Assembly (NCBI GenBank): GCA_025403435.1
Contig: JAJQZP010000041.1
Span: 218,532-282,531, forward strand
DNA from: Artocarpus heterophyllus
Taxonomy: Eukaryota; Streptophyta; Magnoliopsida; Rosales; Moraceae
Length of the DNA stretch: 64,000 nucleotides
Reading direction: 5' to 3'
Made by a program: the position numbers and the translations under genes. The notes below the pieces were generated by a model that saw only the letters and a list, made by a program, of their open reading frames with translations, searched no databases and was not told the origin of the DNA. Below are positions 3,448 to 63,088 of this stretch, in pieces (the first letter of the stretch is position 1; each line of letters opens with the position of its first letter).

Positions 3448-3516
3448 GACAGTTCGGCAGGCCAAAAAGTCCGCCCAAGATCCGCAGGCCGAAGGAAACA
3501 ATCGGCAGGCCGAACA
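3448..3516 (+). repeat. TCGGCAGGCCGA motif cluster, 5' part of gypsy LTR
   Basis: Three copies of a ~12-base GC-rich near-palindrome, GTTCGGCAGGCCAA, TCCGCAGGCCGAA and ATCGGCAGGCCGAA, lie 25-40 bases apart in an AT-rich LTR. The orientation (GGCAGGCC) is opposite to that of the cluster near the LTR 3' end. Confidence 0.8.
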
Positions 3517-3774
3517 TGGCTGACGAGCAGTCAGCAGAAATCTCTCCAAATTTATGGCTGAGATAATTACATTAAATGAGTGATTTATTGTGATTAATTG
3601 GCACAATAATGGAATTTTTTATCAGTTAAGGAAAATAATAGGTTTGACTTCGCCTTGATTTGTCTGATTTTAAATGGTTTCCTATTTTAAGAGGGCAAAA
3701 CATGGAAAGTTGTGAGTGATTGTTTGACCTTCCTTCTTTCTCTCCTTCCTCCACGCCATTTGCCCCAATAAAAC

Positions 3775-3792
3775 AGTCAGAAATTTCTGACT
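3775..3792. repeat. perfect palindrome in gypsy LTR
   Basis: AGTCAGAAATTTCTGACT is an 18-base perfect inverted repeat. The related LTRs at 38321-41232 and 46109-49019 have two versions each (AGTCAGAA-3 nt-TTCTGACT), for example at 40470-40488 and 40631-40649, always next to a cattaa/ttaatg word. Function is unknown. A dyad-binding factor site or RNA hairpin is possible. Confidence 0.7.
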
Positions 3793-5162
3793 TAATGAAG
3801 AGTAATGAATCTTCATTATGCACATTACGTTAAAGAAAAATTTACGTTCTTTTCTCAGATATTTTCTCTCCCTCTCTCTGTTCTGAAACATTCTCTAATT
3901 TTCTCTCTTCCTCTTCTCCTCTCCACGAGTTTCTCTCTCTCTTTCTCAAAAATTTTCTGAGACTATTGAAAGAAAAATTGAAATTTTGTTAGTTGAATTC
4001 AAGGGTTTTGAGAAGAAAGTCTTTTAAGGTAAGGACTCTTTTCTTTGTATTTTTGAAAAGATATTCTCCTCTTCAATTCATCTACAATATCTTCTCTAGG
4101 TATTGTATTTTGTTCTATGTTTTTATATGATGTTCATGTATGTATTATGTAATGTTTTTTCACGTTTTATGTCATTTTGGTATTTTTATAAAAAAAAATA
4201 TATGAATTTTCTATCTTCTACCCCTCCCAGTAATATATTACTGTTTAATCTTGATGCATAAAAAAATGTAATGTTAATTCAAGGGGTAAATGAATGATGT
4301 TTTTCATGATAAATGTATTTTATGTTATGAAATTTTTATGAGATTACATTAAGAAAACTGTTTTAACAATGTTATTTTTGAATTTTGTTTGCGAAATGTT
4401 ATATATAAGTTTAAATGATTTTATGATAATGAAATAATTTTATGCATGATAATAAGATGTTTGAATGAATTATAAAATTAAAGTATATGTATTTTAATTG
4501 TTCGAAAATGTTTTATTTAAAAAAAAAGATATTCATGTTTAAAATGTATGGTTTGATTTTATATGCTTAAGGTAATTTTTATGATATAAGAAAAAAATCA
4601 TGATAACATGTTTATGTGATGAATGTATAAATGAATATTATATGAATGAATGTTATATGAATGGATGATTTACGTTATGATGTTAAGTATTGATTTTATT
4701 GTGTTTTACATTGAATATCATGATTTATGTTTTAAATTTGGTCAATATGATGAAAGATATGTTACTATGAAATTGTGCTTAAGGCACTTTTATGATATGA
4801 GGATGATGATGATGTATATGAAATGTTTTAAATTGTGAGAATTATATATACTTACTAAGCATTAGCTTAATCACGTTTTATGTCATGTTGCAGATAAGGA
4901 TAAGAAAATCATGGAATAGGCAGAGGACATAGAAAGACGTGTGAGCACAAAGCACAATGAATTGTAACCGGAAGAACGCCAAGAATGAATGTTTTATGTT
5001 TTAAATCAAGTTTTATATATTTATGAACATATTTTATGTTAAGTTTTAAGAATACTTGAACTATGGTTTTATGTTTTATTTTATCATTTTAAAGAATTTT
5101 TGGACTTCCGCATTTTTTTATGAAAAGTTGGTTTTGATCTAAAATTAGTTTTCTAAAAACGT

Positions 5163-5347
5163 TTTGGCTCGGTCGGCCTACCAAACTCCCTTGCTCGGTC
5201 TGCGAATGTTTGAAGGTTCGGCCTGCCGAACGATGACAAGTTTTTAAGTCTGATTTGCAAAGCCTCAACCGGCCTGCCGGTTGAGGAACTCCGGCTTGCC
5301 GATCATGTCTGGCCTACCGAAGTCCCAAGTTCGGCCTGCCGAACTGT
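5163..5347 (+). repeat. TCGGCCTGCCGA motif cluster, 3' part of gypsy LTR
   Basis: At least six copies or variants are present, such as GTCGGCCTACC, TTCGGCCTGCCGAA (twice), ACCGGCCTGCCGGT, CCGGCTTGCCGA and CTGGCCTACCGAA, spaced 25-45 bases. They are in the opposite orientation to the 5' cluster of the same LTR. The flanking gypsy LTR is AT-rich, so the cluster stands out in base composition. Confidence 0.85.
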
Positions 5348-5695
5348 GGGAGCAAGTAATGTTTAAGCAATGCGATGATTAATGAATTGTGATGTTGTTT
5401 TTATAAGTTATGATTTTTACAACTTGGAATATCTATTTTATTAAATTAAGTTTATGGTCAATTTAACGTATAATTGAAAAAATTATGACATGGAATGAGT
5501 TAAGTTATGTTACCATGTTAAGTTACCTATAAAAAAAAAAACATATGAATGGATCCTGGTTAAGTAGGTTTAATTACTAATATTTACATTTAAAAGTATC
5601 GTATAAGTTTTGTAATTATGTTATGTTAAAGTTTAAATAAGTATGAATGTATGAATGTAACGACATCTGTGACGTCCGATTTAAGGGGCGTTACA

Positions 5696-8600
5696 AGACG
5701 ACCCTCTCTAACCGATGTGGGAAACATCATTCCTGACAACTTTACACCGCACGTCCTCGTGCCAAATCCATCGTTAACCCACACGAGTGATAGGGAACCT
5801 TTGTACATACACCCACCGACTAGCAGAGGTTTGGCTTTGATACCATTATGATATGAACCCACCTAACTCCACCCAAAAAGCTAGCTCGTGAGGGGAGAAT
5901 TGTGAACCCATATATATAACACCCACGACCAACCTCTCTAACCGATATGGGACACAACATTCCCGACCCCTTTAGACTACACGTCCTCGTGCCAACTCCG
6001 TCGTTAACTCAAACGAGAGGCAGGGAACATTTGTACATGTGCCCACCGACTAGCAGAGGTGTCGCTCTGATACCATATGATATGAACCAACCTAACTCCA
6101 CCACAAAAGCTAGTTCGTGAGGGGAGGATTGTGAACCCATATATATAACACCCAAGTCCAACCGCTCTAACCGATGTGGGACACATCATTCCTGACCCCT
6201 TTAGACTACTTGTCATTGTGCCAACTCCGTCGTTTACCCGCACGTGCGGCAGGGAACCTTTGTACATGCGCCCACCGACTAGCAGAGGTTCAGCTCTGAT
6301 ACCATGTGATATGAACCCACCTAACTCCCCTCCAAAAGCTAGCTCGTGAGGGGAGGATTGTGAACTCATATATATAACACCCAAGACCACCCTCTCTAAC
6401 CGATGTGGGACACATAATTCCTGACCCCTTTAGACTGCATGTCTTTGTGCCAACTCTATCGTTAACTCACACGAGTGGCAGGGAACCTTTGTACATGTGC
6501 CCATCGACTAGCAGAGGTTCCGCTCTGATACCATTATGATATGAACCCACCTAACTCCACCCCAAAAGCTAGCTCGTGAGGGGAGAATTGTGAACCCATA
6601 TATATAACACCCAAGACCAACCTCTCCAACCGATATGGGACGCAACATTCCCGACCCCTTTAGACTGCACGTCCTCGTGCCAACTCCATCGTTAACTCAA
6701 ACGAGTGGCAGGGAACATTTGTACATGTGCCCACCGACTAGCAGAGGTGTCGCTCTGATACCATATGATATGAACCAACCTAACTCCACCACAAAAGCTA
6801 GTTCGTGAGGGAGGATTGTGAACCCATATATATAACACCCAAGAACAACCTCTCTAACCGATGTGGGACACATAATTCCTGACCCCTTTAGACAGCATGT
6901 CTTTGTGCCAACTCTGTCGTTAACCCACACGTGCGGTAGAGAACCCTTGTACAAGCGCCCACCGACTAGCAGAGGTTCAGCTTTGATACCGTATGATATG
7001 AATCCACCTAACTCCACCCCAAAAGCTCACTCGTGAGGGGAGAATTGTGAACCCATATATATAACTCCCAAGACCAACCTCTCTAACCGATGTGGGACAC
7101 AACATTCCCGACCCCTTTAGACTGCACGTCCTCGTGCCAACTCCGTCGTTAACTCACACGAGTGGCAGGGAACCTTTGTACAAGCGCCCATCGACTAGCA
7201 GAGGTGCCGCTCTGATACCATATGATATGAACCAACCTAACTCCACCACAAAAGGTAGCTCGTGACGGAAGGATTGTGAACCCATATATATTACACCCAA
7301 GACCAACCTCTCTAACTGATGTGGGACACATCATTCTTCACCCATTAGACTGCATGTCTTTGTGCCAACTCCATCGTTAACCCACACGAGGGACAGGGAA
7401 CCATTGTACATATGCCCACCGACTAGCAGAGGTTCAGCTCTGATACCATATGATATGAACCCACCTAACTCCACTCCAAAAGCTTGCGCGTGAGGGGAGG
7501 ATTGTGAACTCATATATATAACACCCAAGACCACCCTCTCTAACCGATGTGGGACACATCGTTCCCAGCCCCTTTAGACTGCACGTCCTTATGCCAACTC
7601 CGTCGTTAACTCACACGGGTGGCGGGGAACCTTTGTACATAAGCCCACCGACTAGCAGAGGTTCCGCTCTAATACCATATGATATGAAACCACCTAACTC
7701 CACCCCAACAGCTATCTCGGGAGGGGAGGATTGTGAACCCATATATATAACACCCAAGACCAACCTCTCTAACCGATGTGGGACACATCATTCCTGACCC
7801 CTTTAGACTGCATGTCTTTGTGCCAACTTCGTCGTTAACTCACACGAGTGGCAGGGAACCTTTGTACATGCGCCCACCGACTAGCAGAGGTTCCGCTCTG
7901 ATACCATATGATATGAACCCACCTAACTCCACCCCAAAAGCTAGCTCGTGGGGGGAGGATTATGAACCCATATATATAACACCCCAAACCAACCTCTCTG
8001 AATGATGTGGGACACAACATTCCTGACCCCTTTAGACTACACGTCCTCGTGCCAACTCCGTCGTTAACTCACACGAGTGGCAGGGAACCTTTGTACATGT
8101 GCCCACCGACTAGCAGAGGTTCCGCTCTGATACCATATGATATGAAGCCACCTAACTCCACCCCAAGAGCTAGCTCGTGAGGGGAGGATTGTGAACCCAT
8201 ATATATAACACCCAAGACCAACCTCTCTAACAGATGTGGGACACATCTTTCCCGACCCCTTTAGACTGCACGTCCTCGTGCCAACTCCGTCGTTAACCTG
8301 CACGAGCGGCAGGGAACCTTTGTACATGCACCCACCGACTAACAGAGGTTCAGCTCTGAGACCATATGATATGAACCGACCTAACTCCACTCCAACAGCT
8401 AGCTCGTGAGGGGAGGATTGTGAACCCATATATATAACATCCAAGACCATCCTCTCTAACCGATGTGGGAAACATCATTCCTGACCACTTTAGACAGCAC
8501 GTCCTCGTGCCAACTCTGTCGTTAACCCACACAAGCGGTAGGGAACCTTTTTACACGCACCCACCGACTAGTAGAGGTTCGGGTCTGATACCATTATGAT

Positions 8601-11600
8601 ATGAACCCACCAAACTCCACCCCAAAAGCTTGCTCGTGAGGTGGGGACTGTGAACCCATATATATAACACCGAAGACCACCTTCTCTAACCGATGTGGGA
8701 CACGACATTCCCGACCCCTTTAGACTGCGCGTCCTCGTGCCAACTCCATCGTTAACTCACACGAGTGGCTGGGAACCTTTGTACATGCACCCACCGACTA
8801 GCAGAGGTTCTGCTCTGAGACCATATGATATGAACCGACCTAACTCCACTCCAAATGCTAGCTCGTGAGGGGAGGATTGTGAACCCATATATATAACACC
8901 GAAGACCACCCTCTCTAACAGATGTGGGACACATCTTTCCCGACCCCTTTAGACTGCACGTCCTCGTGCCAACTCCGTCGTTAACCCACACGAGCGCTAG
9001 GGAACCTTTGTACATACCCCCACCGACAAGCAGAGGTTCCGCTCGGATACCATATGATATGAAACCACCTAACTCCACCCCAAAAGCTAGCTCGTGAGGG
9101 GAGGATTGTGAACCCATATATATAACACCCAAGACCATCCTCTCTAACCGATGTGGGACACATCATTCCTGACCCCTTTAGACTGCATGTCTTTTTACCA
9201 ACTCTGTTGTTAACCCACACGAGTGGCAGGGAACCTTTGTACATGCGCCCACCGACTAGCAGAGGTTCAGCTTTGATACCTTATGATATGAACCCTCCTA
9301 ACTCCACTCCGAAAGCTTGCTCATGAGGGGAGGATTGTGAACCCATATATATAATACCCAAGACCACCCTCTCAAAGTGATGTGGGACATATCGTTCTCG
9401 GCCCCTTTAGACTGCACGTCCTCAAGCCAACTTCGTCGTTAACCCACACGAGCGGCAGGGAACCTTTGTACATGCACCCATCGACTAGTAGGGGTTCAGC
9501 TCTGATACCATATGATTTGGACCGACCTAACTCCACTCCAAAAGCTAGCTCTTGAGGGGAGGATTGTGAACCCATATATATAACACCTAAGACCACCCTC
9601 TCTAACCGATATGGGACACATTTTTCTCGATCTCTTTAGACTGCTTGCCCTCGTGCCAACTCTGTCGTTGACCCACACGAGCAGCAAGGAACCTTTGTAC
9701 ATGCGCCCACCGACTAGCAGAGGTTCGGCTCTGATACCATATTATATGAACCCACCTAACTCCACCCCAAAAGCTAGCTCGTGAGGGGAGGACTGTGAAC
9801 CCATATATATAACACCCAAGACCACCCTCTTTAACAGATGTGGGACACATCTTTCCCGACCCCTTTACTCTGCACGTCCTCGTGCCAACTCTGCCGTTAA
9901 CCCACAAGAGCGGCAGGGAACCTTTGTATAAGCACCCATCGACTAGCAGAGGTTCGGCTCTGATACCGTTATGATATGAACCCACCTAACTCCACCCCGA
10001 AAGCTAGCTCGTGAGGGGAGGATTGTGAACCCATATATACAACACACATGACATCCCCGTCCAACCGTTGTGGGACACATCATTCCCGACCCCTTTAGAT
10101 TGCATGTCCTCGCGCCAACTGCAACGTTAACCAACACGAACGGCAGGGAACCTTTGTACATGCGGCCACCGACTAGTGGAGGTTCAATTCTGATACCCTA
10201 TGATATGAACCCACCTAACTCCACCCCAAAAGCTAGCTCGTGATTGGAGGATTGTGAACCCATATATACAACACCCAAGACCACCCACTTTAACAGATGT
10301 GGGACACATCTTTCCCGACCCCTTTAGACTGCACGTCCTCGTGCCAACTTCGTCGTTAACCCACACGAGCGGAAGGGAACCTTTGTACATGCACCCACCG
10401 ACTAGCAGTGGTTCAGCTCTGATATCATATATATGAACCCACCCAACTCCCCTTCAAAAGCTAGCTCGTGAGGGGAGGATTGTGAACCCATATATATAAC
10501 ACCCAAGACCATCCTCTCTAACCAATGTGGGAAACATCATTCCTGACCACTTTAGACAGCACGTCCTCGTGCCAACTCTGTCGTTAACCCACACGAGCGG
10601 TAGGGAACCTTTGTACATGCACCCACCGACTAGCAGAGGTCCGGCTCTAATACCATTATGATATGAACCCACCTAACTCCACCCCAAAAGCTAGCTCGTG
10701 AGGGGAGGATTATGAACCCATATATATGACACCCATGACCAACCTCTCTAACCGATGTGGGAGACAACATTTCCGACCCCTTTGGACTGCACGTGCTCGT
10801 CCCAACTCCGTCGTTAACTCACACGAGTGGCAGGGAACCTTTGTACATGTGCCCACCGACTAGTAGAGGTTCCGCTCTGATACCATATGATATGAACCCA
10901 CCTAACTCCTCCCTAAAAGCTAGCTCGTGAGGGGAGGATTGTGAACCCATGTATAAAACACCCAAGACCACCCTCTCTAACCAATGTAGGACACATCTTT
11001 CCCGATCATATGAACCCACCTAACTCCACTCCAAAAGCCAGCTCGTGAGGGGAGTATTGAGAACCCATATATATAACACCCAAGACCACCCTCTCTAACC
11101 GATGTGGGACACATCATTGACGACCCCTTTAGACTGCACATCCTCGTGCCAACTCCGTCGTTAACCCACACGAGCGGCAGGGAACCTTTGTACATGCACC
11201 CATCGACTTGCAGAGGTTCGGCTCTGATACCATTATGATATGAACCCACCTAACTCCTCCCTAAAAGCTAGCTCTTGAGGGGAGGATTGTGAACCCATAT
11301 ATATAACACCCAAGACCACCCTCTCTAACCGATGTGGTACACATTATTCCCGACCACTTTGGACTGCACGTCCTCGTGCCGACTCTGCCGTTAACCCACA
11401 TGTGTGATAGGGTACCTTTGTACATGCACCCACATACTAGCAGAGGTTCGGCTCTGATACCATTATTGTATAAACCCACCTAACTCCACCCCAAAAGCTA
11501 GCTCGTGAGGGGAGGATTGTGAACCCATATATATGACACCGAAGACCACTCTCTTTAACCGATGTGGGACACATCATTCCCGACCACTATAGACTGCACG

Positions 11601-13093
11601 TCCTCGTGTCAACTCTGTCGTTAACCCACACGAACGGCAGGGAACCTTTGTAAATGAGCCCACCGACCAGCAGAGGTTCAGCTCTGATACCATATGATAT
11701 GAATCCACCAAACTCCACTCCAAAATCTAGCTCGTGAGGGGAGGATTGTGAACCCATATATATAACACCTAAGACCACCCTCTCTAACCGATGTGGTAAA
11801 CATCATTCCTGACCCCTTTAGACTGCACATCCTCGTGCTAACTCCGTCGTTAACCCACACCAGTGGCAGGGAACCTTTGTACATGCACCCACCGACTAGT
11901 TGAGGTTCGAATCTGATACCATTATGATATGAACCCTCCTAATTCCACCCCAAAAGCTAGCTCGGGAGGGGAGGACTGTGAACCCATATATATAACACCA
12001 AAGACCACCCTCTCTAACCGAAGTGGGACACATCATTCCTGACCCCTTTAGACTATACGCCCTAGTGCCAACTCCGTCGTTATCCCACACGAGCGGCAGG
12101 GAACCTTTGTGCATGCACCCACCGACTAGCAGAGGTTCGGCTCTGATACCATTATGAAATGAACCCACCTAACTCCACCCTAAAAGCTAGCTCGTGAGGG
12201 GAGGATTATGAACCCATATATATTACACCCAAGACCAACCTCTCTAACCGATGCGGGACACAACATTTTTGACCCCTTTAGACTGCACGTCCTCGTGCCA
12301 ACTCCGTCGTTAACTCACACGAGTGGCAGGGAACCTTTGTACATGTGCCCACCGACTAGCAGAGGTTCCGTTCTGATACCATATGATATGAACCCACCTA
12401 ACTCCACCCCAAAAGCTAGTTCGTGAGGGGAGGATTGTGAACCCAAATATATAACACACAAGGCCGCCCACTCAAACTGTTGTGGGACACATTTTTCCTG
12501 ACCGCTTTAGAGTGCACTTCCTCGTGCCAACTTTGTCGTTAACCCACACGAGCGGCAAGGAACCTTTGTACATGAGCCCACCAACTAGCAGAGGTTTGGC
12601 TCAGATACCATATGATATGAACCCACCTAACCCCACCCCATATATAAAACACCCAAGACCACCATCTATAACCAATGAAGGACACATCTTTCCCGACCCC
12701 TTTAGGCTGCACGTCCTTGTGTCAACTCCATCGTTAACCCACACCAGCGGCTGGGACCTTTGTAAATGAGTTCACCGACCAGAAGAGGTTCAGCTCTGAT
12801 ACCATATGATATGAATCCACCTAACTCCACTCCAAAATCTAGCTCGTGAGGGGAGGATTGTGAACCCATATATATAACACCGAAGACCACCCTCTATAAC
12901 CGATGTGGTAAACATCATTCCCAACCCCTTTAGATTGCACATCCTCGTGCCAACTCCATCGTTAACCCACACGAGCGGCAGGGAACCTCTGTACATGCAC
13001 CCACAGACTTGCAGAGGTTCGGCTCTGATACCATTATGATATGAACCCACCTAACTCCACCCCAAAAGCTAGCTCGTGAGGGGAGGATTTTGA
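5696..13093 (-). repeat. TRIM-derived tandem array, segment 1 (~32 units of 229 bp)
   Basis: Head-to-tail copies, on average roughly 85-90% alike by eye, are each recognisable by GATGTGGGACACATC, a CTCTGATACCAT primer-site complement and TATATATAACACC. On the minus strand each unit reads LTR (111 bp), primer site, ~118-bp interior, polypurine tract. Most units are full length. A unit is lost in part at about 11006 (cccga joined to tcatatgaaccc) and about 60 bp are missing at 12640. The unit is 3n+1 bases long, so reading frame rotates from unit to unit and the many minus-strand open frames of 60-128 codons are not genes. Confidence 0.92.
13089..13093. other. target-site duplication of copia A (left)
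   Basis: TTTGA here is repeated at 22671-22675 directly after the far LTR. Joining the flanks restores the array word gaggatttTGAACCC, so the insertion site is defined to the base. Confidence 0.9.
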
Positions 13094-13484
13094 TGTTGGA
13101 AACAAAGTGCGCAGCGGAATTTTTAAAAATTTTTCCATCAGAGTATTTTCCAAACACAAGTTTGACATGTTATATGTATAAATTAAACAGATCTTACTAA
13201 CCTCAGTGTGCCGAAGAACCTCCGCGACCTGTGTAGAGAAGTAACGTTCCAGAAGAGCCTCAACCAACTAGTCTTCTTTGCTATTCTCTATCCACAACCG
13301 GAGTGAGTGTGGGCTCACACGTACAGCTCTTCCACCGGTGACTCTCCTTCCAACCAATAGAGAGAACCCAAAGCTAGTGTTCGTGATTTGTGAACAAAAG
13401 CTCTCAGGGAGTTTTCAGATGCTCACTAGAAGAGTATCACTCTTAATCTCTCAAATTGATCTGAGTAAATCATTAGACTCACTC

Positions 13485-13494
13485 CCTTTTTATA
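13485..13494 (-). promoter_or_regulatory. TATA box in copia A 3' LTR
   Basis: On the minus strand TATAAAAAGG follows a CCAATAGG word, so CCAAT and TATA lie side by side. The same pair is at 21071-21080 (5' LTR of A), 54961-54970 and 62675-62684 (both LTRs of B). It is the likely core promoter of the family, with transcription starting ~30 bases downstream. Confidence 0.7.
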
Positions 13495-13608
13495 CCTATT
13501 GGTCCTTGGGGTCAGTCCATATCAGATTAGGTCTCAAAAATCGAAACAGAATCAAGTTCGGATCAATATCTGATAAGATACGCGTGAAAAACGCGTAATC
13601 TTAACTGT

Positions 13609-13674
13609 CGCGGTCGGCATGCCGAACTGTGTGATAGGCAGGCTGAACTTTCTGATAGGCAGGCCGAACTGCCG
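13609..13674 (-). repeat. TCGGCAGGCCGA motif cluster in copia A 3' LTR
   Basis: Four variants occur on the plus strand: GTCGGCATGCCGAA, TAGGCAGGCTGAA, TAGGCAGGCCGAA and a half site CTGCCGAG. The 5' LTR (21194-21240) has one period fewer, so the cluster has gained or lost one ~20-base unit between the two LTRs. On the element strand it lies upstream of the TATA box, in U3. Confidence 0.8.
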
Positions 13675-15104
13675 AGAAAAAATCTCCGCGAATCTTTTAT
13701 TTTCCACCCGAGATTCTAAAGGATAAAGTCTCAGTTTTGATTCAAATAGCCCAATAGAAAAGATATCTGATCAAAACAAACTTTATCAAGATAATCTCTA
13801 AGAAAATAAATCAATTCACAATAATTCTACAAGTTTATCTTGTTCTAATTGTCCAAAATTAAAACAACCGATAAACAGACAAGAATTATCCGAACGCCAT
13901 AATTCAACAAGTTCATCTTGAACTAATTTCTTACATAATTAATTCAACCGATAAACAGACATGAATTATTTGATTCTTATAAATTTTAAACCAATCTGAT
14001 AAATCCGACATAAGTCACCAATTATTGGAAAAGCACGCCGTGTCGTTACAGGATTTTGTGAGCTAGCAAAGGGGACCAAAATGGACCTATAAAGTTCAAC
14101 TTCATGATAATTATGAAACCCAATATCCCAAATATACATTTCACAATTATCAACTCCAACGCTACTCCACTAAAAGCTTGGAGCTGCACTCTCGAACTTT
14201 ATAGAATTACGAAGCTCGTGTAGCTAAGTCTCCATGACATATCATAGTATATCGCATCCCCATATGATCATCCATAATCGGCTTAAGGACAAGTTCTGTC
14301 TTACCTTCCTGATTATTTTTATCTTACGTTCCATTGTCCCACCATTAGAAAACTTACCATCCAAAGATAGTATACCATTCGGTTACACCTATGTATCCAA
14401 ATGGTTGAGTGCTCCAGTTTTCCAATTACAGGACAACGCATATAAGAGGATATCATTACTCCTAAAGAGGAGCTATGGATTCCATATCTATGAATAACAA
14501 GTCTACGCTACCAAGAGTCATGCCTCCAACGTACCGGCATGCATGCCACTATAGAGATGTGGGAGTCACCCATTGGTACATCAAAAGACACAAGTCGAGA
14601 CAACGGGCCCATTATTCATCTCAGGATTAAGATACAATACAAATGATTGTCTAAAGTGAATCGATTTTCCAAGACAGAATTATTAATCCAAATCAATTCA
14701 CTTTATGTCCCGATCCAACACATCGTCACCTATGACAACATGCCAATGTTTCTATTCACGGAGTCCAACTCCGATGGCCAAGACAAACCATCTCCTAAAA
14801 GGGATATAGACAACATAACAATCTTTACATGAACAAAGCGCCCAACTTTATTCCCTCGATTGCGGATCATATATTTTAGACCATCACCTTAAGAGTCGTG
14901 TCTACCGCATAATCATCCCATCATATGCCCAACTCTTAAGGTTTAGACTGACAGTCTCAGACTACTGTTTGCTTATCATACATTCAACAAATATGAACGT
15001 AAAGAGGACAATTTTGGTATATATAAATGAATAAATTTTTTATTGATAAAAATGTCTCCAAAAACGTATTACATTTTTACTCCTTAGAGCATACATGTCT
15101 AACA

Positions 15105-15117: not shown

Positions 15118-15118
15118 A

Positions 15119-16549
15119 CTAAGTGAGTAAATACTGCAAATTTCGCATCCCCATAGCTTCCACATGCCTTTCGAAGACTCTCCCAGAAAGTATCTTCGTA
15201 AATGGATCAGCTAAATTGTCCTCTGACGCGATCTTGCACACCGTGACATGCCCGCTCTCAACGAAGTCCTTTATCACATGATACTTCCGATCAATATGCT
15301 TACTCTTCTTGTGAAATCTTGGTTCCTTAGCATTAGCTACCGCCGCACTGTTATCACAGTACAGTGATACCGCTTTATCCACACCAGGAACTACCTCAAG
15401 ATCCCCAAGGAACTTGTGGAGCCACACTGCTTCTTTTGAAGCATCACTAGCCGCCACATACTCGGCCTCCATCGTTGAATCCGAAGTGCAATCTTGCTTC
15501 ACACTTCTCCAACTGATGGCACCGCCACCCAGAGTAAACACAAACCCCGATGTCGATTTCCTAGAATCCAGGCAGGATTGAAAATCCGAATCAGTGTATC
15601 CTAGAGGAGTTAAATCCTCACCCGAATACACAAGCATATACCCTCGAGTCCTTCTTAGGTACTTGAAAATATGCTTTACCGCAACCCAATGGTTCGGTCC
15701 TGGATCCGCCTGAAATCGACTCACAATCCCGACCGCATAGCTAATATCCGGTCGAGTGCAAAGCATGGCATACATGAGACTACCCACTGCCGAAGCATAA
15801 GGTACCTTCTTCATGTATTCTCTTTCTTCATAAGACTTTGGAGAGTCTTTCTTAGAAAGAGTAATTCCAAACCTAGATGGTTGCCCACCTTTCTTGGAAT
15901 CCTGCATTGCAAACCTCCTGAAAATTTTATCTATGTAGCTGGCCTGTGACAAAGCTATCATTTTGTTCTTCCTATCTCGAAAGATCTGGATACCGAGAAC
16001 AAAATTAGCCTCACCTAAGTCCTTCACGTCAAACTGCTTGGTCAACCATAATTTGACCGATGACAATGCCCCAACGTCATTACCAATTAGCAGAATGTCA
16101 TCTACATAGAGTAGTAGAAAAACCACCTTCCCATTCTTAATGTGTTTGTAAACACATGGCTCATCCACATTTTGTGAGAACCCATAAGTCTTGATCACAT
16201 GATCAAATCTTATGTTCCAAGAACGAGAAGCCTGCTTAAGTCCATAAATAGACTTTAGCAACTTACAAACCTTACCCTCTTGACCCGTGACCTTGAACCC
16301 GTCTGGTTGTTCCATATAAATGGACTCATCAAGATAGCCATTCAGAAAAGCCGTCTTGACATCCATCTGCCAAATCTCGTAGTCGAGAGCGGCAGCTATG
16401 GACAAGAGAATCCGGATGGACTTAAGCATGGCTACAGGCGAAAAGGTTTCCTCATAATCGATTCCTTCCTTTTGCGTATAACCCTTAGCTACCAGTCTAG
16501 CCTTAAAGGTTTTGACCTTACCCCTTCGGGAAGATCCACAAGCTCCCAA
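15119..16549 (-). pseudogene. copia A pol, RT and RNase H part
   Basis: The open frame holds the copia reverse transcriptase from [21 protein letters not shown] on, through the active-site motif [11 protein letters not shown] (about residues 147-157), and RNase H ([19 protein letters not shown], then [19 protein letters not shown], and [15 protein letters not shown] near the end). It stops just before the polypurine tract. Its apparent start is not real: the frame continues from the upstream pol frame (18555-16489). A loss of about 52 bases near 16526, compared with copy B (59579-59631), put the two parts out of frame and deleted the conserved RT segment [16 protein letters not shown]. The rest of RT/RNase H is uninterrupted, so the damage is probably recent. 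Confidence 0.93.
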
Positions 16550-19980: not shown

Positions 19981-20170
19981 TCGGTCGGCAGGCCGATCTG
20001 GGTGATCGGTCTGCGGATCATGGTGGTTTGGCCTGCCGAACATGAAGGTTTGGCCTGCCGACAGAGCACCAAAATTTCTGCCCCACTGTCGGCCTGCCGG
20101 ACCGTACGTCCGGCCTGCCGATCTGTGACCTTCGGCCTGCCGAACTGTGAGGTCTGGCATGCCGACCGAG
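19981..20170 (-). repeat. TCGGCAGGCCGA motif cluster in copia A leader
   Basis: About ten copies or variants lie in 190 bases, including GTCGGCAGGCCGAT, TTTGGCCTGCCGAA, TGTCGGCCTGCCGG, TCCGGCCTGCCGAT, TTCGGCCTGCCGAA and CTGGCATGCCGACC, spaced about 20-30 bases. Both orientations occur but GGCCTGCC on the plus strand dominates. The surrounding leader is AT-rich. Confidence 0.85.
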
Positions 20171-49019: not shown

Positions 49020-49199
49020 CACACATACCAAGACTTATCAGTCAGTCCATCCATAGCTGATTGTGGCGTCCTCACATACCAAGGTTCGTGCTTCTTGTTG
49101 GGCATCGGGTCACGGTTCCATCCAAAACCAGTTAGAAATTTTGATCTTGGAAACCAATCTTGGTTAGGGTCGCGTCAGCTCCTGGCGTGGTTCGTATCA
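49020..49199 (+). repeat. 3' LTR of CRM-like element, last part
   Basis: After the CACAC duplication (49020-49024), the remaining 175 bases complete the 801-bp LTR to GGTTCGTATCA at 49199. TSD GTGGG follows at 49200-49204. Confidence 0.93.
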
Positions 49200-52100
49200 G
49201 TGGGACACATCATTCCCGACCCCTTTAGACTGTACGTGCTCGTGCCAACTCTATCGATAACCCACACGAGCGGTAGGGAACCTCTTTACATGTGCCCACC
49301 AACTAGCAGAGGTTCGACTCTGATACCATTATGATATGAACCCACCAAACTCCACCCCAAAAGCCAGCTCGTGAGGGGAGGATTGTGAACCCTTATATAT
49401 AACACCCAAGACCACCCTCACTAACCGATGTGGGACACATCATTCCCGACCCCTTTAGACTGCACGTCCTCGTGCCAACTCCGTTGTTAACCCACACGAG
49501 CGGCAGGGAACCTTTGTACATGCACCCACCGACTTGTAGAGGTTCGGCTCTGATACCATATGATATAAACCCACCTAACTCCACCCTAAAAGCTAGCGCA
49601 TGTGGGGAGGATTGTGAACCCATATATATAATACCCAAGTCCACCTTCTCTAACCGATGTGGGACACATCATTCCCGACCCTTTTAGCCTACACGTCCTC
49701 GTGCCAACTCCATCATTAACCCACACCAGCGACAGGGAACCTTAGTACATGCACCCACCGACTAGCAGAGGTTCGGCTCTGATACCATAAGATTTGAGCC
49801 CACCTAACTCCACTCCAAAAGCTAGCTCGTGAGGGGAGGATTGTGAACCCACATATATAACACCCAAAACCACCCACTCTAACCGATGTGGGACACATCA
49901 TTCCCGACCCCTTTAGACTGCACGTCCTCGTGCCAACTCCGTTGTTAACCCACAGGAGCGGCAGGCAACCTTTGTACATGCACCCACCGACTTGCAGAGG
50001 TTCGACTCTGATACCATATGATATGAACCCACCTAACTCCACCCTAAAAGCTACCGCATGTGGGGAGGATTGTGAACCCATATATATAACACCCAAGTCC
50101 ACCTTCTCTAACCGATGTGGGACACATCATTCCCGACCCTTTTAGACTGCACGGCCTCATGCCAACTCCGTCGTTAACCCACACGAGCGGCCTGGAACCT
50201 TTATACATGCACCCACAGACTAGCAGAGGTCCGACACTGATACCATTATGATACGAACCCACCTAACTCCACCCCAAAAGCTAGCTCGTGAGGGGAGGAT
50301 TGTGAACCCATATATATAACACCCAAGACCACCCTCTCTAACCGATGTAGGACACATCATTCCACACCCCTTTAGACTGCACGTCCTCAGGCCAACTCTG
50401 TCGTTAACCCACATGAGCGGTAGGGAACCTTTGTACATGCACCCACCGACTAGCAGAGGTTTGGCTCTGATACCATATGATATGAACCCACCTAACTCCA
50501 CCCCAAAAGCTAGCTCGAGAGGGGAGGAATGTGAACCCATATATATAACACCCAAGACCACCATCTCTAACCGATGAGGAACACACCATTCCAGACCCCT
50601 TTAGACTGTACGTCCTCGTGCCAACTCCATCATTAACCCAAACGAGCGACAGGGAACCTTTGTACATGCACCCACCGACTAGCAGAGGTTCGGCTCTGAT
50701 ACCATAAGATATGAACCCACCTAACTCCACTCCAAAAGCTAGCTCGTGAGGGGAGGATTGTGAACCCACATATATAACACCCAAGACCACCCTCTCTAAC
50801 CGATGTGGGACACATCATTCCCGACCCCTTTAGACGGCACGTCCTCATGCCAACTCTGTCATTAACCCACACGAGCGGCCGGGAACCAGTGTACATGCAC
50901 CCATCGACTAGCAGAGGTTCGGCTCTAATACCATTTTGATATGAACCCACCTAACTCCACCCCAAAAGCTAGCTCGAGAGGGGAGGATTGTGAACCCATA
51001 TATATAACACCCAATACCACCCTCTCTAACCGATGTGGGACAAATCATTCCCGACCCCTTTAGACGGCACGTCCTCATGCCAACTCTGTCATTAACCCAC
51101 TCGAGCGGCAGGGAACCTTTGTCCATGCGCCCACCGACTTGCAGAGGTTCGGCTCTGATACCATATGATATGGACCCACCTAACTCCACCCCAAAAGCAA
51201 GCACATGTGGGGAGGATTGTGAACCCATATATATAACACCCAAGTCCACCTACTCTAACTGATGTGGAACACATCATTCCTGACCCCTTTAGACTGTACG
51301 TCCTCGTGCCAACTCCATCATTAACCCACACGAGCGACAGGGAACCTTTGCACATGCGCCCATCGACTAGCAGAGGTTCGGCTTTGATACCATAAGAAAT
51401 AAACCCACGTAACTCCACTCTAAAAGCTAGCTCGTGAGGGGAGGATTGTGAACCCACATATATAACACCCAAGACCACCCTCTCTAACCGATGTGGGACA
51501 CATCATTCCCGACCCCTTTACACTGCATGTCCTTGTGCCAACTCTGTCACTAACCTACACGAGTGGTAGCGAACCTTTGTACATGAGCCCACCGACTAGC
51601 AAAGGTTCGGCTCTGATACCATATGATATAAACCCACCTAAATCCACCCCAAAAGCTAGCTCGTGAGGGGAGGATTGTCAACCCAAATATATAACACTCA
51701 AGACCACCCTCTCTAACCGATGTGGGACACATCATTCCCGACCGCTTTAGACTGCACGTCCTCATGCCAACTCCGTCGTTAACCCACACGAGCGGCGGGG
51801 AACCTTTGTACATGCATCCTCTGACTAGTAGAGGTTCAGCTCTAATACCCTATCATATCAACGCACCTAACTCCACTCCAAAAGCTAGCTCGTGAGGGGA
51901 GGATTGTGAACCCATATATATAACACCCATGACCACCCTCTCTAACCGATGTGGGACACATCATTCCTGACCCCTTTAGACTGCACGTCCTCTTGCCAAC
52001 TCTATCGTTAACCCCCACGAGCAGCAGGGAACCTTTGTACATGCAACCACGAACTAGTAGAGGTTCGGCTCTGATACCATTATGATATGAACCAACCTAA

Positions 52101-52769
52101 CTCCACCCCAAAAGCTAGCTCGTGAGGGGAGGATTGTGAATCCATATATATAACAACCAAGACCACCCTCTCGAACCGATGTAGGACACATCATTCCCAA
52201 CCCCTTTAGACAGCACGTCCTCGTGCCAACTCTGTTGTTATCCCACACGAGCGGAAGAGAACCTTTGTACTTGCGCCCACCGACTAGCAGAGGTTCGGCT
52301 CTGATGCCGTATGATATGAACCCACCTAACTCCACCATAAAACCTAGCTCGTTAGGGGAGGATTGTGAACCTATATATATAAGACCCAAGATCACCCTCT
52401 CTAACCGATGTGGGACACATCATTCCTAACCCCTTTAAACTGCACGACCTCGTGCCAACTCCATCGTTAACCAACACGAGTGGCAGGGAACCTTTGTACA
52501 TGCGCCCATCGACTAGCAGAGCTTCAGCTCTGATACCATATGATATGAACCCACCTAACTCCACTCCAAAAGCTAGCTCGTGAGGGGAGGATTGTGAACC
52601 CATATATATAACGCCCAAGACCACCCTCTCTAACCGATGTGGGACACATCATTCCTGACCCTTTTAGACTGCACGTCCTCGTGCCAACTCTGTCGTTAAC
52701 CCGCACGAGCGGTAGGGAATCTTTGTACATGCGCCCATCGACTTGTAGAGGTTCGGCTCTGATACCATA

Positions 52770-52998
52770 TGATATGAACCCACCTAACTCCACCCCAAAA
52801 GCTAGCGCTTGGGGGGAGGATTGTAAACTCATATATATAGCACCCAAGTCCACCTTCTCTAACCGATGTGGAACACATCATTCTTGACCCCTTTAGACTG
52901 TACATCCTCATGCCAACTCCATCATTAACCCACACGAGTGACAGGGAACCTATGAACATGCGCCCACTGACTAGCAGAGATTCGACTCTGATACCATA
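52770..52998 (-). repeat. representative TRIM unit: 111-bp LTR plus 118-bp interior
   Basis: On the minus strand the LTR is 52880 down to 52770, from TGATGTGTTCCACATCGG to GGTTCATATCA, with a TATATATA box about 40 bases in. Next to its start is the polypurine tract CTAAAGGGGTCAAGAA (52896-52881). In the neighbouring part of the array each LTR end is followed by TATGGTATCAGAGC (here 52998-52985), complementary to initiator Met tRNA. 111 + 118 gives the 229-bp period exactly. No coding capacity. Confidence 0.85.
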
Positions 52999-53325
52999 TG
53001 ATATGAACCTACCTAACTCCACCCCAAAAGCTAGCTCGTAAGGGGAGCATTGTGAACCCATATATATAACACCCAAGACCACCCTCTCTATTTGATGTGG
53101 GACACATCATTCCTGACCCCTTTAGACTACATGTCCTCGTGCCAACTCCATCTTTAACCCACACGAGCGGCGGGGAACCTTTGTACATGCGCCCACTGAC
53201 TCGCAGAGGTTCGGCTCTGATACCATTTGATATGAACCCACCTAACTCCACCCCAAAAGCTGCCTCATGAGGGGTGGATTGTGAACCCATATATATAACA
53301 CCCAAGACCACCCTCTCTAATCGAT

Positions 53326-53330
53326 GTGGG
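53326..53330. other. target-site duplication of copia B (left)
   Basis: GTGGG here corresponds to GTAGG at 63089-63093, one transition different. Array sequence continues on both sides in register (gatGTGGG / GTAGGacccatcattcccgacc). Confidence 0.82.
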
Positions 53331-55372
53331 TCTTAGACATGTATGCCCTACGGAGTAAAAATGTAATACGTTTTTGGAGACTGTTATATGTAATATGTTT
53401 TTGGAGACATAATAAAGTATTTATTCATATATTCTAAATCTTGTCCTCTTTATGTTCATATATGTTGAATGTATGATAAGCAAACAGTAGTCTGAGACTC
53501 TCAGTCTAAACCTTTAAGAATTGGGCATATGATGGATTGATTATGCAGAAGACACGATTCTTAAGGTGACAATCTAAAACATAAGATCTGCAATCGAGGG
53601 AATAAGGTTGGGCACTTTATTCATGTAAAGATTGTTATGTTCTCTATATCCCTTTTGGGAGATGGTTTGTCTTGACCATCAGAGTTGGGCTCCGTAAATA
53701 AAAACATTGGTGCATTGTCATAGGTCACGATGTGTTGGATTGGGACATAAAGTGAATTGATTTGGATTAATAATTCTGTCTTGGCAAATCGATTAACTTT
53801 AGAAAATCATTTATATTGTATCTTAATCTTGAGATGAATAGTGGGCCCTTTATCTCGACTTGTGTCTTTTGATATGCCAAAGGGTGACACCCACATCTCA
53901 ATAGTGGTATGCATGCCGGTACGTTGGAGGCATGACTCTTGATAGCGTAGACTTGTTATTCATAGATATGGAATCCATAGCTCCTCTTTAGGAGTAATGA
54001 TATCCTCTTATATGCGTTGTCCTGTAATTGGAAAACTGGAGCGCTCAACCATTTGGATGCATAGGTGTAACCGAATGGTATACTATCTTTGGATAGTAAG
54101 TTTTTTGATGGTGAGATAATGGAACGTAAGATAAAAATAATAGGGAAGGTAAGACAAAACTTGTCCTTAAGCCGATTATGGATTATCATATGGGGATACG
54201 ATACACTTTGATATGTCATGGAGACTTAGCTGTACGAGCTTCATAATTCTATAAAGTTCGAGAGTGCAGCTCCAAGCTTTTAGTGGAGTAGTGTTGGAGT
54301 TGATAATTGTGAAATGTATATCTAGGATATTGGGTTTCATAATTATCATGAGCTTGAACTTTATAGGCCCATTTTGGTCCCTTTTGCTAGCTCACAAAAT
54401 CCTGTAACGACACGGCGTGCTTTTCTAATAATCGGTGACTTATGTCAGATTTATCAGATTGGTTTAAAATTTGTAAGAATCAAATAATTCATGTCTATTT
54501 ATCAGTTGAATGAATTTTGTAATAAAATTAATTTAAGATAAACTTGTTGAATTATTGAGATTGGACAATTCTTGTCTGTTTATCGGTTGATTTAATTTTG
54601 GATAAATTAGATCAAGATAAACTTGTAGAATTATTGTGAATTGATTTATTTTCTTAGAGATTATCTTGATAAAGTTTGTTTTGATCAGATAACTTTCTAT
54701 TGGGTTATTTGAATTAAAACTAAGACTTTATCCTATAGAATCTCGGGTGGAAAATAAAAGATTCACGGAGATATTTACGCAGGAGTTTGGCCTATCGAAT
54801 GACGTGTTTGGCCTATCGATGGGGCTTGTTCGACCTGCCGATCAGTGAGCGATAAGATTACACATTTTCACGTGGATCTTATCAGATATTGATCCAAACT
54901 TGATTCTGTTTCAAATTTTTGAGACCTAATCTGATAAGGACTGACCCCAGGACCAATAGGTATAAAAAGGGAGTGAGTCTCATGATTTACTCAGAGTTCA
55001 ATATTCAGAGATTAAGAGTGATACTCTTCTAGTGAGCATCTGAAAACTCCCTGAGAGCTTTTGTTCACAAATCACGAACACTAGCTTTGGGTTCTCTCTA
55101 TTGGTTGGAAGGAGAGTCACCGGTGGAAGAGCTGTACGTGTGAGCCTACACTCACTCCAGTTATGGATAGAGAATAGCAAAGAAGACCAGTTGATTGAGG
55201 CTCCTTTGGAACGTTACTTCTCTACACAGGTTGCGGAGGTTCTTCGGTATAGGAGGTTAGTAAGATCTGTTTAATTTACACATATAGCATGTCAAACTTG
55301 TGTTTTGGAAAAATACTCTGATGTTAAAATTTTTAAAATTCCACTGCGTACCTCTCACACATTTTTCCAACA
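53331..55372 (+). repeat. 5' LTR of copia B (2042 bp)
   Basis: It begins TCTTAGACATGTATGCC (TGTT in the other copies) and ends TTTTTCCAACA. It contains a partly eroded motif cluster (about 54785-54845: TTTGGCCTATCGAA, TTCGACCTGCCGAT), then CCAATAGG and TATAAAAAGG at 54954-54970. A duplicated stretch near its start (cgtttttggagac at 53369 and 53396) is private to this LTR. Confidence 0.9.
54961..54970 (+). promoter_or_regulatory. TATA box in copia B 5' LTR
   Basis: TATAAAAAGG is directly preceded by GACCAATAGG. The same pair occurs in all four LTRs of this family in the window. It is the probable promoter of the genomic RNA. Confidence 0.7.
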
Positions 55373-55879: not shown

Positions 55880-56120
55880 TGCTCGGTCGGCATGCCGGAC
55901 ATCACAGTTCGGCAGGCCGATGGTCACAGATCAGCAAGTCAGACGTGTGGTCCGACAGGCCGTTAGTGGAGCAGAAATTGGCTGGCTCTGCCAGCAGGCA
56001 GAACTTCCAGTTCGGCATGCCGAACTTTCATGGGTCGGCAGGCCAATCTCCTAGATCGACAGGCCGATGAAGCATGACCGGCAGGCCGATTACCCAGATC
56101 GACCTGCCGACCGAGAGCTA
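55880..56120 (+). repeat. TCGGCAGGCCGA motif cluster in copia B leader
   Basis: About ten copies or decayed variants lie at 20-35 base spacing. Decay is mostly CG to TG or CA, as expected for methylated cytosines. It occupies the same place as the cluster in copia A (19981-20170). Confidence 0.85.
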
Positions 56121-60000: not shown

Positions 60001-61029
60001 CAAACACATTAAAGATGGGAAGGTGGTTTTTCTACTGCTCTATGTGGATGACATTCTCTAATTGACAATGATGTTGGGGCATTGTCATCGGTCAAATTAT
60101 GGTTGACCAAGTAGTTTGACATGAAGGACTTGGGTGAGGCTAATTTTGTTCTCGGTATCCAGATATTTCAGGACAAGAAGAACAAAATGGTAGCTTTGTC
60201 ACAGGCCAGTTACATAGATAAAATTCTCAGGAGGTTTGCAATGCAGGATTCCAAGAAAGGTGGGCAACCATCTAGGTCTGGAATTACTCTTTCTAAGAAA
60301 GACTCTCCAAAGTCTTATGAAGAAAGAGAATACATGAAGAAGGTACCTTATGCTTCGGCAGTGGGTAGTCTTATGTATGGAATGCTTTGCACACGACCGG
60401 ATATAAGCTATGTGGTCGGGATTGTAAGTCGATTTTAGGCGGATCCAGGACCGAACCATGGGGTTGCGGTAAAGCAAATTTTCAAGTACCTGAGAAGGAC
60501 TCGAGGGTATATGCTTGTGTATTCGGGTGAGGACTTGACTCCTCTAGGATACACTGACTCAAATTTTCAATCCTGTCTGGATTCTAGGAAATTGACTTTG
60601 GGGTTTGTGTTTACTCTGGGCGGCGGTGCCATCAGTTGGAGAAGTGCGAACCAAGATTGCACTTCGGATTCAACGATGGAGGCCGAGCATGTGGCAACTA
60701 GTGATGCTTCGAAAGAAGCAGTGTGGCTCCGTAAGTTCCTTGGGGATCTTGAGATAGTTCCTGGTATGGAGAAGGCGGTATCACTGTACTGTGATAACAG
60801 TGCAGCGGTAGCTAATGCTAAGGAATCGAGATTTCACAAGAAGAGTAAGCATATTGATCGAAAGTATCATGTGATAAAGGACTTCGTTGAGGGCGGGCAT
60901 GTCACGGCGTGCAAGATTGAGTCAGAGGACAATTTAGCTGATCCATTTATGAAGACACTTACTGGGAGAGTCTTCAAGAGGCATGTGGAAGCAATGGGGA
61001 TGCAAAATTTGCTGTATTTACTCACTTAG
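57080..61029 (+). pseudogene. copia B gag-pol remnant
   Basis: Domain order matches copia A: gag start MSKNTLSPILDKNQLTGENYNDWK, zinc knuckle [14 protein letters not shown] near 57835-57875, protease [11 protein letters not shown] near 57960-57990, integrase ([14 protein letters not shown] near 58380; DVCGPM near 58570; [14 protein letters not shown] near 58615; GEYLSDEF near 58770), RT ([13 protein letters not shown] near 59583, YVDDIL near 60042) and RNase H ([14 protein letters not shown] near 60555, [15 protein letters not shown]). Stops include TAG 57338-57340, TAG 57425-57427, TAG 57542-57544 (shared with A), TAG 58846-58848, TGA 59777-59779, TAG near 60112 and TAG 60436-60438. Frameshifts are near 57709, 59250 and 60058. 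It retains the RT segment that copia A has lost. Confidence 0.93.
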
Positions 61030-61043
61030 TGCAAGTGGGAGAT

Positions 61044-63088
61044 TGTTAGACATGTATGCCCTAAGGAGTAAATATGTTATACGTTTTTGGAGACATTTTT
61101 ATATAAATAAAGAATTTATTCATATATAACAAATCTTGTCCTCTTTACGTTCATATATGTTGAATGTATGATAAGCAAACAGTAGTCTGAGACTCTCAGT
61201 CTAAACCTTTAAGAATTGGGCATATGATGGACTGATTATGTGGAAGACATGATTCTTAAGATGACGGTCTAAAACATAAGATCCACAATCGAGGGAATAA
61301 AGTTGGGCGCTTTATTCATGTAAAGATTGTTATGTTGTCTATATCCCTTTTGGGAGATGGTTTGTCTTGACCATAGGAGTTGGACTCCGTGAATAGAAAC
61401 ATTGGCGCGTTGTCATAGGTGACGATGTGTTGGATCGGGACATAAAGTGAATTGATTTGGATTAATAATTCTGTCTTGGCAAATCGATTCACTTTAGACA
61501 ATCATTTATATTGTATCTTAATCCTGAGATGAATAGTGGGCCCGTTGTCTCGACTTGTGTCTTTTGATGTGCCAAAGGGTGACACCTACATCTCAATAGT
61601 GGTATGCATGCTGGTACGATGGAGGCACGACTCTTGATAGCGTAGACTTGTTATTCATAGATATGGAATCCATAGCTCCTCTTTAGGAGTAATGATATCC
61701 TCTTATATGCGTTGTCCTGTAATTGGAAAACTGGAGCGCTCAACCATTTGGATGCATAGGTGTAACCGAATGGTATACTATCTTTGGATAGTAAGTTTTC
61801 TGATGGTGAGATAATGGAACGTAAGATAAAAATAATCGGGAAGGTAAGACAAAACTTGTCCTTAAGGCGATTATGGATTATCATATGGGGATACGATACA
61901 CTTTGATATGCATGGAGACTTAGCTATATGAGCTTCGTTATTCTATAAAGTTTGAGAGTGCAACTCCAAGCTTTTAGTGGAGTAGCGTTGGAGTTGATAA
62001 TTGTGAAATGTATATCTGGGATATTGGGTTTCATAATTATCACGTGCTTGAACTTTATAGGTCCATTTTGGTCCCTTTGCTAGCTCACAAAATCCTGTAA
62101 CGACATAGTGTGCTTTTCCAATAAATGGTGACTTATGTCGGATTTATCAGATTGGTTTAAAATTTGTAAGAATCAAATAATTCATGTCTGTTTATCGGTT
62201 GAATTAATTTTGTAATAAAATTAATTTAAGATAAACTTGTTGAATTATTGGGATCGGACAATTCTTGTCTGTTTATCAATTGATTTAATTTTGGATAAAT
62301 TAGATCAAGATAAACTTGTAGAATTATTGTGAATTGATTTATTTTCTCAGAGATTATCTTGATAAAGTTTGTTTTGATCAGTTAACTTTCTATTTGGTTA
62401 TTTGAATCAAAACTGAGACTTTATCTTATAGAATCTCGGGTGGAAAATAAAACATTCGCGGAGATATTAACGCAGGAGTTCGGCCTACCGAATGACTTGT
62501 TCGGACTGCCGATGGGGCTTGTTTGGCCTGCCGAACAGGCTGTTCGGTGTGCCGATCAACGAGCGATAAGATTACGCGTTTTCACGTGGATCTTATCAGA
62601 TATTGATCCAAACTTGATTCTGTTTCAAATTTTTGAGACCTAATCTGATAAGGACAAACCCCAGGACCAATAGGTATAAAAAGGGAGTGAGTCTCATGAT
62701 TTACTCAGAGATCAATATTGAGAGATTAAGGGTGATACTCTTCTAGTGAGCATCTGAAAACTCCCTGAGAACTTTTGTTCACAAATCACAAACACTAGCT
62801 TTAGGTTCTCTCAATTGGTTGGAAGGACAGTCACCGGTGGAAGAGCTGTAAGTGTGAGACCACACTCACTCCGGTTGTGGATAAAGAATAGCAAAGAAGA
62901 CCAGTTGGTTGAGGCTCTTCTGGAACGTTACTTCTCTACACAGGTTGCAGAGATTCTTTGGAACATAAGGTTAGTAAGATCTAATTAATTTACACATATG
63001 GCATGTCAAACTTGTTTTTTGAAACAATACTCTGATGTTAAAATTTTAAAAATTCCGCTGTGTTCACCTCTCACACATTTTTCCAATA
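61044..63088 (+). repeat. 3' LTR of copia B (2045 bp)
   Basis: It starts TGTTAGACATG after the polypurine tract and ends CCAATA. The TATA box is at 62675-62684 and the motif cluster at about 62479-62557 (TTCGGCCTACCGAA, TTTGGCCTGCCGAA, TTCGGTGTGCCGAT). It is better preserved in the motif region than the 5' LTR. Confidence 0.9.

Follow-up and report, generated by a model that had tools for sequence, protein, structure and literature searches.

Tandem arrays of one GC-rich palindrome in gypsy and copia LTR retrotransposons of Artocarpus heterophyllus: putative sites for a host DNA-binding factor

Described systems of short sites in plant transposons

The amplification of E2F sites by transposons in Brassicaceae was reportedly described by Henaff et al. 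in 2014. The carriers of these sites are, according to a review, MITEs of the hAT, PIF/Harbinger, and MULE types together with Helitrons (PMC12595863). The sites analyzed here, in a window of 64,000 nt of Artocarpus heterophyllus DNA, resemble this system in that one short site—of a host factor there, of a putative one here—is amplified by unrelated transposon superfamilies, being common to gypsy and copia elements without shared flanks. In the E2F system, however, the factor is known, its binding was tested, and the carriers are mostly DNA transposons (PMC12595863), whereas here gypsy and copia elements carry phased arrays for a putative factor.

The VANC21 targets in VANDAL21 of Arabidopsis are dense arrays of a short motif in the same orientation that lie in non-coding DNA and undergo rapid tandem turnover (PMC5735166). 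Dense arrays of this kind with gain and loss of tandem units are found here as well. The confinement of the motif to one family encoding its own binder is not: VANC21 is transposon encoded and its motif belongs to a single family (PMC5735166), whereas the present motif occurs in gypsy and copia, and the examined frames hold no such binder.

Host-factor sites in plant LTRs include the BII boxes of Tnt1, the heat element of ONSEN, and the W-boxes of EVADE (PMC3316501, PMC12786077). These sites also lie in the regulatory region of the LTR, in a layout like that of the copia array before the TATA box described below. They concern single families with known inducers or factors (PMC3316501, PMC12786077), in contrast to one palindrome across superfamilies with tens of thousands of sites. 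The E2F sites and VANC21 arrays thus serve as precedents. We read the arrays as separately acquired, slippage-expanded sites for one dimeric host DNA-binding factor that would be kept for a transcriptional benefit—a reading that is, on balance, somewhat probable.

The palindrome and its carriers

The palindrome TCGGCNNGCCGA occurs at 78,652 exact sites in the 985-Mb assembly, compared with 221 for a reversed-letter control, and 62,016 of them feature an AG/CT centre. In 20 preset 10-kb stretches, it was found 14 times with 0.019 expected, the top enrichment for its shape. By both counts, the motif is not equally common in AT-rich sequence, a trivializing outcome that the sequence-only reading had itself raised. 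The 64-kb window contains 81 strand-wise matches with at most two mismatches versus 1.55 expected in shuffles (largest shuffle: 5), both strands being scored so that each perfect palindromic site counts twice. The conserved unit is YCGGC-NN-GCCGR with a freer centre, often preceded by GW and followed by WC. The motif or its decayed forms is present in all twelve clusters of the sequence-only reading, weakly so at 54785–54845, where a single one-mismatch site is accompanied by two sites that each deviate at three positions. To our knowledge, no plant transcription-factor family matches the palindrome. As literature text, the 12-mer returned nothing on plant transposons among titles and abstract starts, and the gapped palindrome returned a bacterial match only; motifs published solely as logos would escape both searches. 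The exact array is absent from a viral contig collection.

The arrays are carried by three groups of LTR retrotransposons: the chromodomain gypsy group T, a second gypsy group E/F, and the copia group C, to which 39 of 40 sampled loci belong. The T elements, labeled Tekay-like in the sequence-only reading, bear two arrays per LTR and a chromodomain after the integrase (PF00385, 25.5 bits at a cut-off of 25.1). The window contains two of them, T_A and T_B:

3204–5698, forward strand: 3′ LTR of T_A, whose element is cut by the window start (self-BLAST against T_B, 75–88%)
3454–3513, forward strand: LTR-start array of T_A, 3 sites
5169–5342, forward strand: LTR-end array of T_A, 5 sites with at most two mismatches
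38321–41232, reverse strand: 3′ LTR of T_B (99.86% identity to 46109–49019 across 2,912 nt)
38672–38860, reverse strand: LTR-end array of the T_B 3′ LTR, 8 sites
40900–40977, reverse strand: LTR-start array of the T_B 3′ LTR, 4 exact sites in 22-nt steps
41269–45933, reverse strand: gag-pol open frame of T_B, 1,554 aa, with RVT_1 and chromodomain
46109–49019, reverse strand: 5′ LTR of T_B, near-identical to its 3′ LTR (99.86%)
46459–46647, reverse strand: LTR-end array of the T_B 5′ LTR, 8 sites
48687–48764, reverse strand: LTR-start array of the T_B 5′ LTR, 4 exact sites

The copia group features one array in the LTR and another in the leader, downstream of the promoter. Its two elements in the window are copia C and copia D:

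13094–15104, reverse strand: 3′ LTR of copia C (97.6% identity to 20679–22670)
13614–13667, reverse strand: array of the copia C 3′ LTR, 3 sites
15119–18555, reverse strand: integrase and RVT_2 frames of copia C
19985–20165, reverse strand: leader array of copia C, 8 sites
20679–22670, reverse strand: 5′ LTR of copia C (97.6% identity to its 3′ LTR)
21200–21232, reverse strand: array of the copia C 5′ LTR, 2 sites (the 3′ LTR has one more unit of 21 nt)
53333–55348, forward strand: 5′ LTR of copia D
54787–54841, forward strand: array of the copia D 5′ LTR, 3 units, two of them decayed
55887–56110, forward strand: leader array of copia D, 2 + 5 sites
61046–63060, forward strand: 3′ LTR of copia D
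62480–62555, forward strand: array of the copia D 3′ LTR, 4 sites
62675–62681, forward strand: TATAAAA of the copia D 3′ LTR, with the last site 119 nt upstream and a CCAAT beginning 8 nt before it

Among the best 120 of 7,953 proteins in a search with the copia RT, identity peaks at 84%, and named plants such as Citrus, Vitis, and Acer are represented at about 65–77%. The absence of the motif from CRM-like and TRIM sequences, claimed from the sequence alone, holds for the CRM-like element (0 matches at up to two mismatches) and for the stretch 63087–64000 (0 matches), whose TRIM identity is putative; another LTR element besides the CRM-like one also lacks it. Three satellite blocks contain 0 matches at up to one mismatch and 14 at two.

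With the motif masked, the copia group aligns with neither T nor E at an E-value cut-off of 0.01. The assertion that copia and gypsy LTRs share no homology beyond the motif therefore stands, and the ancestral segment that might have explained the motif by simple transfer is not seen: no alignable piece links the copia LTR or leader to the gypsy LTRs. Between T and E/F, masked comparison yields short weak matches, the best spanning 108 columns at 65.7% (T_A versus F, E 7e-6), and these fall away from the arrays of T. Between E and F, the alignment takes in the flanking sequence as well as the arrays (259 of 363 columns), so inheritance accounts for those two, and the RTs of T and E are related (69% aa), so the two gypsy groups may not be independent gains. 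A single ancestral LTR piece that was passed between families with its array, its flanks later diverging beyond recognition, would suit these gypsy relationships as well as the motif, period, and favored AG/CT centre common to all groups. It is very unlikely given the masked alignments and given that the groups differ in where the arrays lie within the LTR and in how these are oriented to the element, with one copia array outside the LTR altogether.

Period, conservation, and position of the arrays

Of 113 start-to-start distances between neighbouring sites, 73 measure 21 or 22 nt and none falls within 28–38 nt—a predominant period in place of the loose 20–45-base spacing first reported. A larger set of distinct pairs gives 92 of 166 at 21–22 nt and 2 of 166 at 28–38 nt, and exact–exact pairs at this spacing number 9,774 assembly-wide versus 3 for the reversed control. 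The period is seen in T, C, and E alike. Helical phasing over two DNA turns was considered as its source and set aside, as autocorrelation cannot tell it from unit duplication; plain unit duplication would also yield a 21–22-nt period.

The arrays gain and lose units in exact 21–22-nt tandem steps, even between both LTRs of one insertion, and 28 of 36 have a single orientation, the 8 mixed ones being all leader arrays of the copia group. These steps, the mostly uniform orientation, and the near-identical spacers in the LTR-start array of T_B suit a minisatellite, selfish or neutral, with no protein bound to it. Its 22-nt unit would have reached several LTRs through gene conversion or template switching and then spread by slippage. 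Drift, however, would preserve core and spacer equally, which disfavors this account. Spacer interiors are alike at just 0.336 within arrays and 0.261 between families (0.256 for random), yet the partner half-site is retained: for array half-sites outside exact palindromes, the partner half matches at four of five positions in 127 of 181 cases, versus 34 of 249 elsewhere. Between copies, the core exceeds the array spacers in likeness in five of five array types, so core and spacer do not diverge alike as in a neutral minisatellite, with the caveat that out-of-register repeat alignment inflates core identity. The CGs of the core likewise surpass the remaining CGs of their region in likeness in five of five, the comparison for the copia LTR resting on 6 columns of such remaining CGs. 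A comparison with the remaining LTR or leader is unfavorable to the host-factor reading: in C (both arrays) and E, copies differ more in the whole core than in that remainder, and T alone shows the reverse. One and the same core also recurs at five mutually non-homologous array positions, and we regard the minisatellite as decidedly unlikely. The mobile short repeat of the sequence-only reading agrees with the in-place gain and loss of tandem units but would need to move a 12-nt core without its spacers of about 10 nt.

Copia-group copies with TATAAAA have the last site 118–119 nt upstream of it in 17 of 18 cases despite varying unit numbers; the exact TATAAAA is missing from 5 of 23 copies. 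A search near the T and E arrays found no convincing TATA box. These missing boxes weigh against the host-factor reading, as do the place of the copia leader array beyond the promoter and a period that duplication of units could produce by itself. The repetition of a short motif above chance in LTR and non-coding DNA is that of a homotypic array.

Arrays away from the promoter—at the LTR start of T and in the copia leader—suit anti-silencing better than an enhancer. In this account, the arrays would recruit a protein, encoded by the host or by another transposon, that acts chiefly by removing or blocking LTR DNA methylation instead of directly activating a promoter, similar to VANC21, whose features recur in the one orientation of most arrays and the changing unit number. 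This is rather unlikely: the VANC21 motif is reported to be family specific with its own binder, whereas here two superfamilies have one motif. Moreover, no binder-like coding match was found in the long frames of T, C, and E, which are gag-pol, or in seven leader frames of copia C and D, which match copia gag only—a check confined to these frames.

A role at the RNA level, with the palindromes acting as hairpins or pairing loops for packaging, dimerization, or translation, would fit the copia leader array, which falls in the 5′ untranslated RNA, and shuffled controls fold less well than six of the array stretches (z −3.0 to −5.5). These folds are not taken as support since any palindromic repeat is expected to fold well. 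Two-sided changes number 20 versus about 29 expected among 337 in-array sites, whose collection at up to three mismatches disfavors doubles; complementary changes make up 15 of the 20, and pair 3/10 has 4 versus 1.8. As the copia LTR array also lies upstream of the TATA box, such a role is highly improbable.

Putative host factor and its meaning

Of the two origins proposed from the sequence alone, convergent recruitment fits better because of the non-homologous array positions, unrelated spacers, conserved core, and fixed distance to the copia TATA box; its independence may not extend to both gypsy gains. In the favored reading of sites for one host factor, YCGGCNNGCCGR, with the best form GWTCGGCNNGCCGAWC, is the putative site of one dimeric, sequence-specific host protein. 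Founder sites would have been gained in non-coding regulatory DNA by gypsy and copia LTR retrotransposons (T, E/F, and C) and multiplied via 21–22-nt tandem duplication, the spacers drifting while the core was retained. The sites would raise LTR transcription, in the copia group through a homotypic array placed shortly before the TATA box. We infer protein binding, the dimeric state, host encoding, and activation; the arrays would most likely drive or protect transcription. A further step is possible, if doubtful: gypsy and copia may have converged on this protein as a common access key, forming a guild of elements that are co-expressed or jointly escape silencing and whose tens of thousands of sites would titrate the factor genome-wide.

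Array-bearing and array-free elements in one genome provide a natural contrast for convergent regulatory-site capture. If the reading is true, the arrays could serve directly as bait to identify the candidate factor, the factor would face a large pool of decoys in the approximately 79,000 exact sites, and one host factor would be a single control point for the expression or silencing of much of the mobile DNA of this genome.

Abundance of the palindrome and layout of the window

The exact 12-nt palindrome TCGGCNNGCCGA occurs 78,652 times in the 985-Mb assembly (334 contigs), compared with 221 occurrences of its reversed-letter control, and the TCGGCAGGCCGA form accounts for 62,016 hits over both strands (control: 3). 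The window, 64 kb of contig C32, holds 81 strand-wise matches at up to two mismatches versus 1.55 expected, and the clusters located by the sequence-only reading are all present. Twenty preset windows totalling 200 kb contain the exact palindrome 14 times versus 0.019 predicted by base composition, and eight of them have arrays. Of the 1,024 possible palindromes of this shape, 195 turned up there, and this one is the most enriched; the runner-up reaches 3 versus 0.005. Given the genome-wide counts and the preset-window enrichment, the motif is no general property of ordinary AT-rich sequence, the possibility set beforehand as its refutation.

The window consists of 229-bp satellite blocks broken up by LTR retrotransposons:

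T_A and T_B: the two gypsy elements of the window
C and D: the two copia elements of the window, ~92% alike
5694-13090, 22671-31725 and 49200-53332: three blocks of 229-bp tandem satellite, with LTR elements between them
31726-38320 and 49022-49199: CRM-like element, its 3' LTR split by the nested young T_B

The CRM-like element had been described as free of the motif and indeed shows no match at up to two mismatches; the satellite shows none at up to one. Positions 63087-63606 carry direct repeats of ~163 nt (87%) and an inverted copy of ~129 nt (92%), perhaps the TRIM of the sequence-only reading. The sampled locus L016 (1-8174) features two LTR-like direct repeats, each at least 1,592 nt long, 99.8% identical and ~6.6 kb apart—apparently a young LTR-type element—with no motif match at up to two mismatches in repeats or interior.

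Carrier families and array architecture

Forty loci were chosen from exact sites on contig C1 and compared with the motif masked: 23 match copia C, nine gypsy T (one, L043, only weakly), seven a second gypsy, E, and one (L047) none of them. T features a chromodomain, and C matches copia RT and copia gag. E was defined from preset windows (L009, L024, and L025), has LTRs of ~2.1-2.2 kb as bounded by alignment ends, and matches the integrase SH3 domain, with just weak similarity to a chromodomain. F (L010 and L023) is a diverged relative of E, and its array aligns with that of E, flanks included.

Each array is built from the unit YCGGCNNGCCGR, preferentially preceded by GW and followed by WC. 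A spacing of 21-22 nt accounts for 73 of 113 steps between adjacent sites when near-identical copies are counted separately, and for 92 of 166 distinct pairs. The 100 contiguous exact sites on C1 form 36 close pairs (10 at 21-22, 15 at 43-44, and 1 at 33 nt), and 98 distinct exact sites have no neighbour at 12-17, 19, 25, or 28-33 nt. Genome-wide, 9,774 exact-exact pairs are spaced by 21-22 nt (control: 3). Of the 36 arrays that have three or more oriented sites, 28 keep a single orientation; the eight mixed ones are all C leader arrays.

Unit number in C arrays differs between copies in 21-22-nt steps, and the LTRs of the copia C element (13605-13675 versus 21190-21240) differ by exactly one 21-nt unit. 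Slippage or unequal exchange thus adds or removes units, and the one-unit difference places an array change at or after insertion. The T_B LTR-start array, with four exact sites and near-identical spacers in LTRs that are 99.86% identical, is, judged by its sequence, a recent expansion.

One transferred piece or separate gains

With the motif masked, C aligns to neither T nor E at a cut-off of E 0.01, and T versus E/F gives only short hits, the best (T_A versus F) spanning 108 columns at 65.7% outside the arrays of T. The earlier claim that the two superfamilies share no other LTR homology holds for copia C against the gypsies T and E. Away from the core edge, spacer agreement between families is 0.261, versus 0.256 for random draws and 0.336 inside arrays; with the edge positions, which are part of an extended palindrome, it is 0.383. 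The arrays also differ in position:

T_B arrays: LTR +256-333 and +2373-2561 of 2,912
E array: LTR about +819-985 of 2,141
C LTR array: about +1435-1510 of about 2,010
C leader array: about 510-760 nt downstream of the 5' LTR

The masked alignments, the unlike spacers, and the differing positions favour separate gains by the families over one transferred piece. The gains of T and E may be non-independent because their RTs are 69% identical.

When copies are compared, similarity of the core exceeds that of the array spacers in 5/5 array types, and in all five its CG dinucleotides also vary less than CGs elsewhere in that region, although out-of-register alignment of repeats works in the cores' favour and just six further CG columns were available in the C LTR. 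Measured against the remainder of the region, the core as a whole shows higher similarity between copies in the two T arrays alone; in E and both C arrays its similarity is lower. Outside exact palindromes, the partner half matches at 4 of 5 positions for 127/181 array half-sites versus 34/249 elsewhere. There is no sign of RNA pairing by the palindromes: two-sided changes number 20, below the about 29 expected under independence.

Promoter context and a proposed host binding protein

The arrays are explained most simply by a dimeric host protein that would bind them and activate the LTRs; we infer binding, dimerisation, host origin, and activation alike. The protein would read YCGGC-NN-GCCGR at sites spaced by roughly two turns of the helix and, once bound, raise LTR transcription. 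Of the 23 copies of C, 18 have an exact TATAAAA and five are without it; in 17 of the 18 the final site of the array ends 118-119 nt upstream of the box, in the remaining one 163 nt, and CCAAT begins 8 nt upstream of the box in 15/18, a promoter-proximal layout. Just 3' of the LTR array of copia D, an inverted repeat at 62566-62605 (GATAAGAT...ATCTTATC) surrounds a G-box-like CACGTGG and is another candidate for a regulatory element upstream of the TATA box. The next best account is an anti-silencing version modelled on VANC21, in which the arrays would counter silencing. T and E show no TATA box comparable to that of C, and the C leader array lies downstream of the promoter, which leaves room for other roles such as this one.

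Precedents exist for parts of this picture. According to a review (PMC12595863), one E2F site is amplified by several transposon superfamilies. The VANC21 work (PMC5735166) describes motif arrays with tandem turnover. Tnt1, ONSEN, and EVADE are presented (PMC3316501 and PMC12786077) as having LTRs with host-factor sites. As far as text searches of the literature tell, three things are new: the motif itself, its occurrence in both gypsy and copia LTR elements, and phased arrays of it on such a scale.
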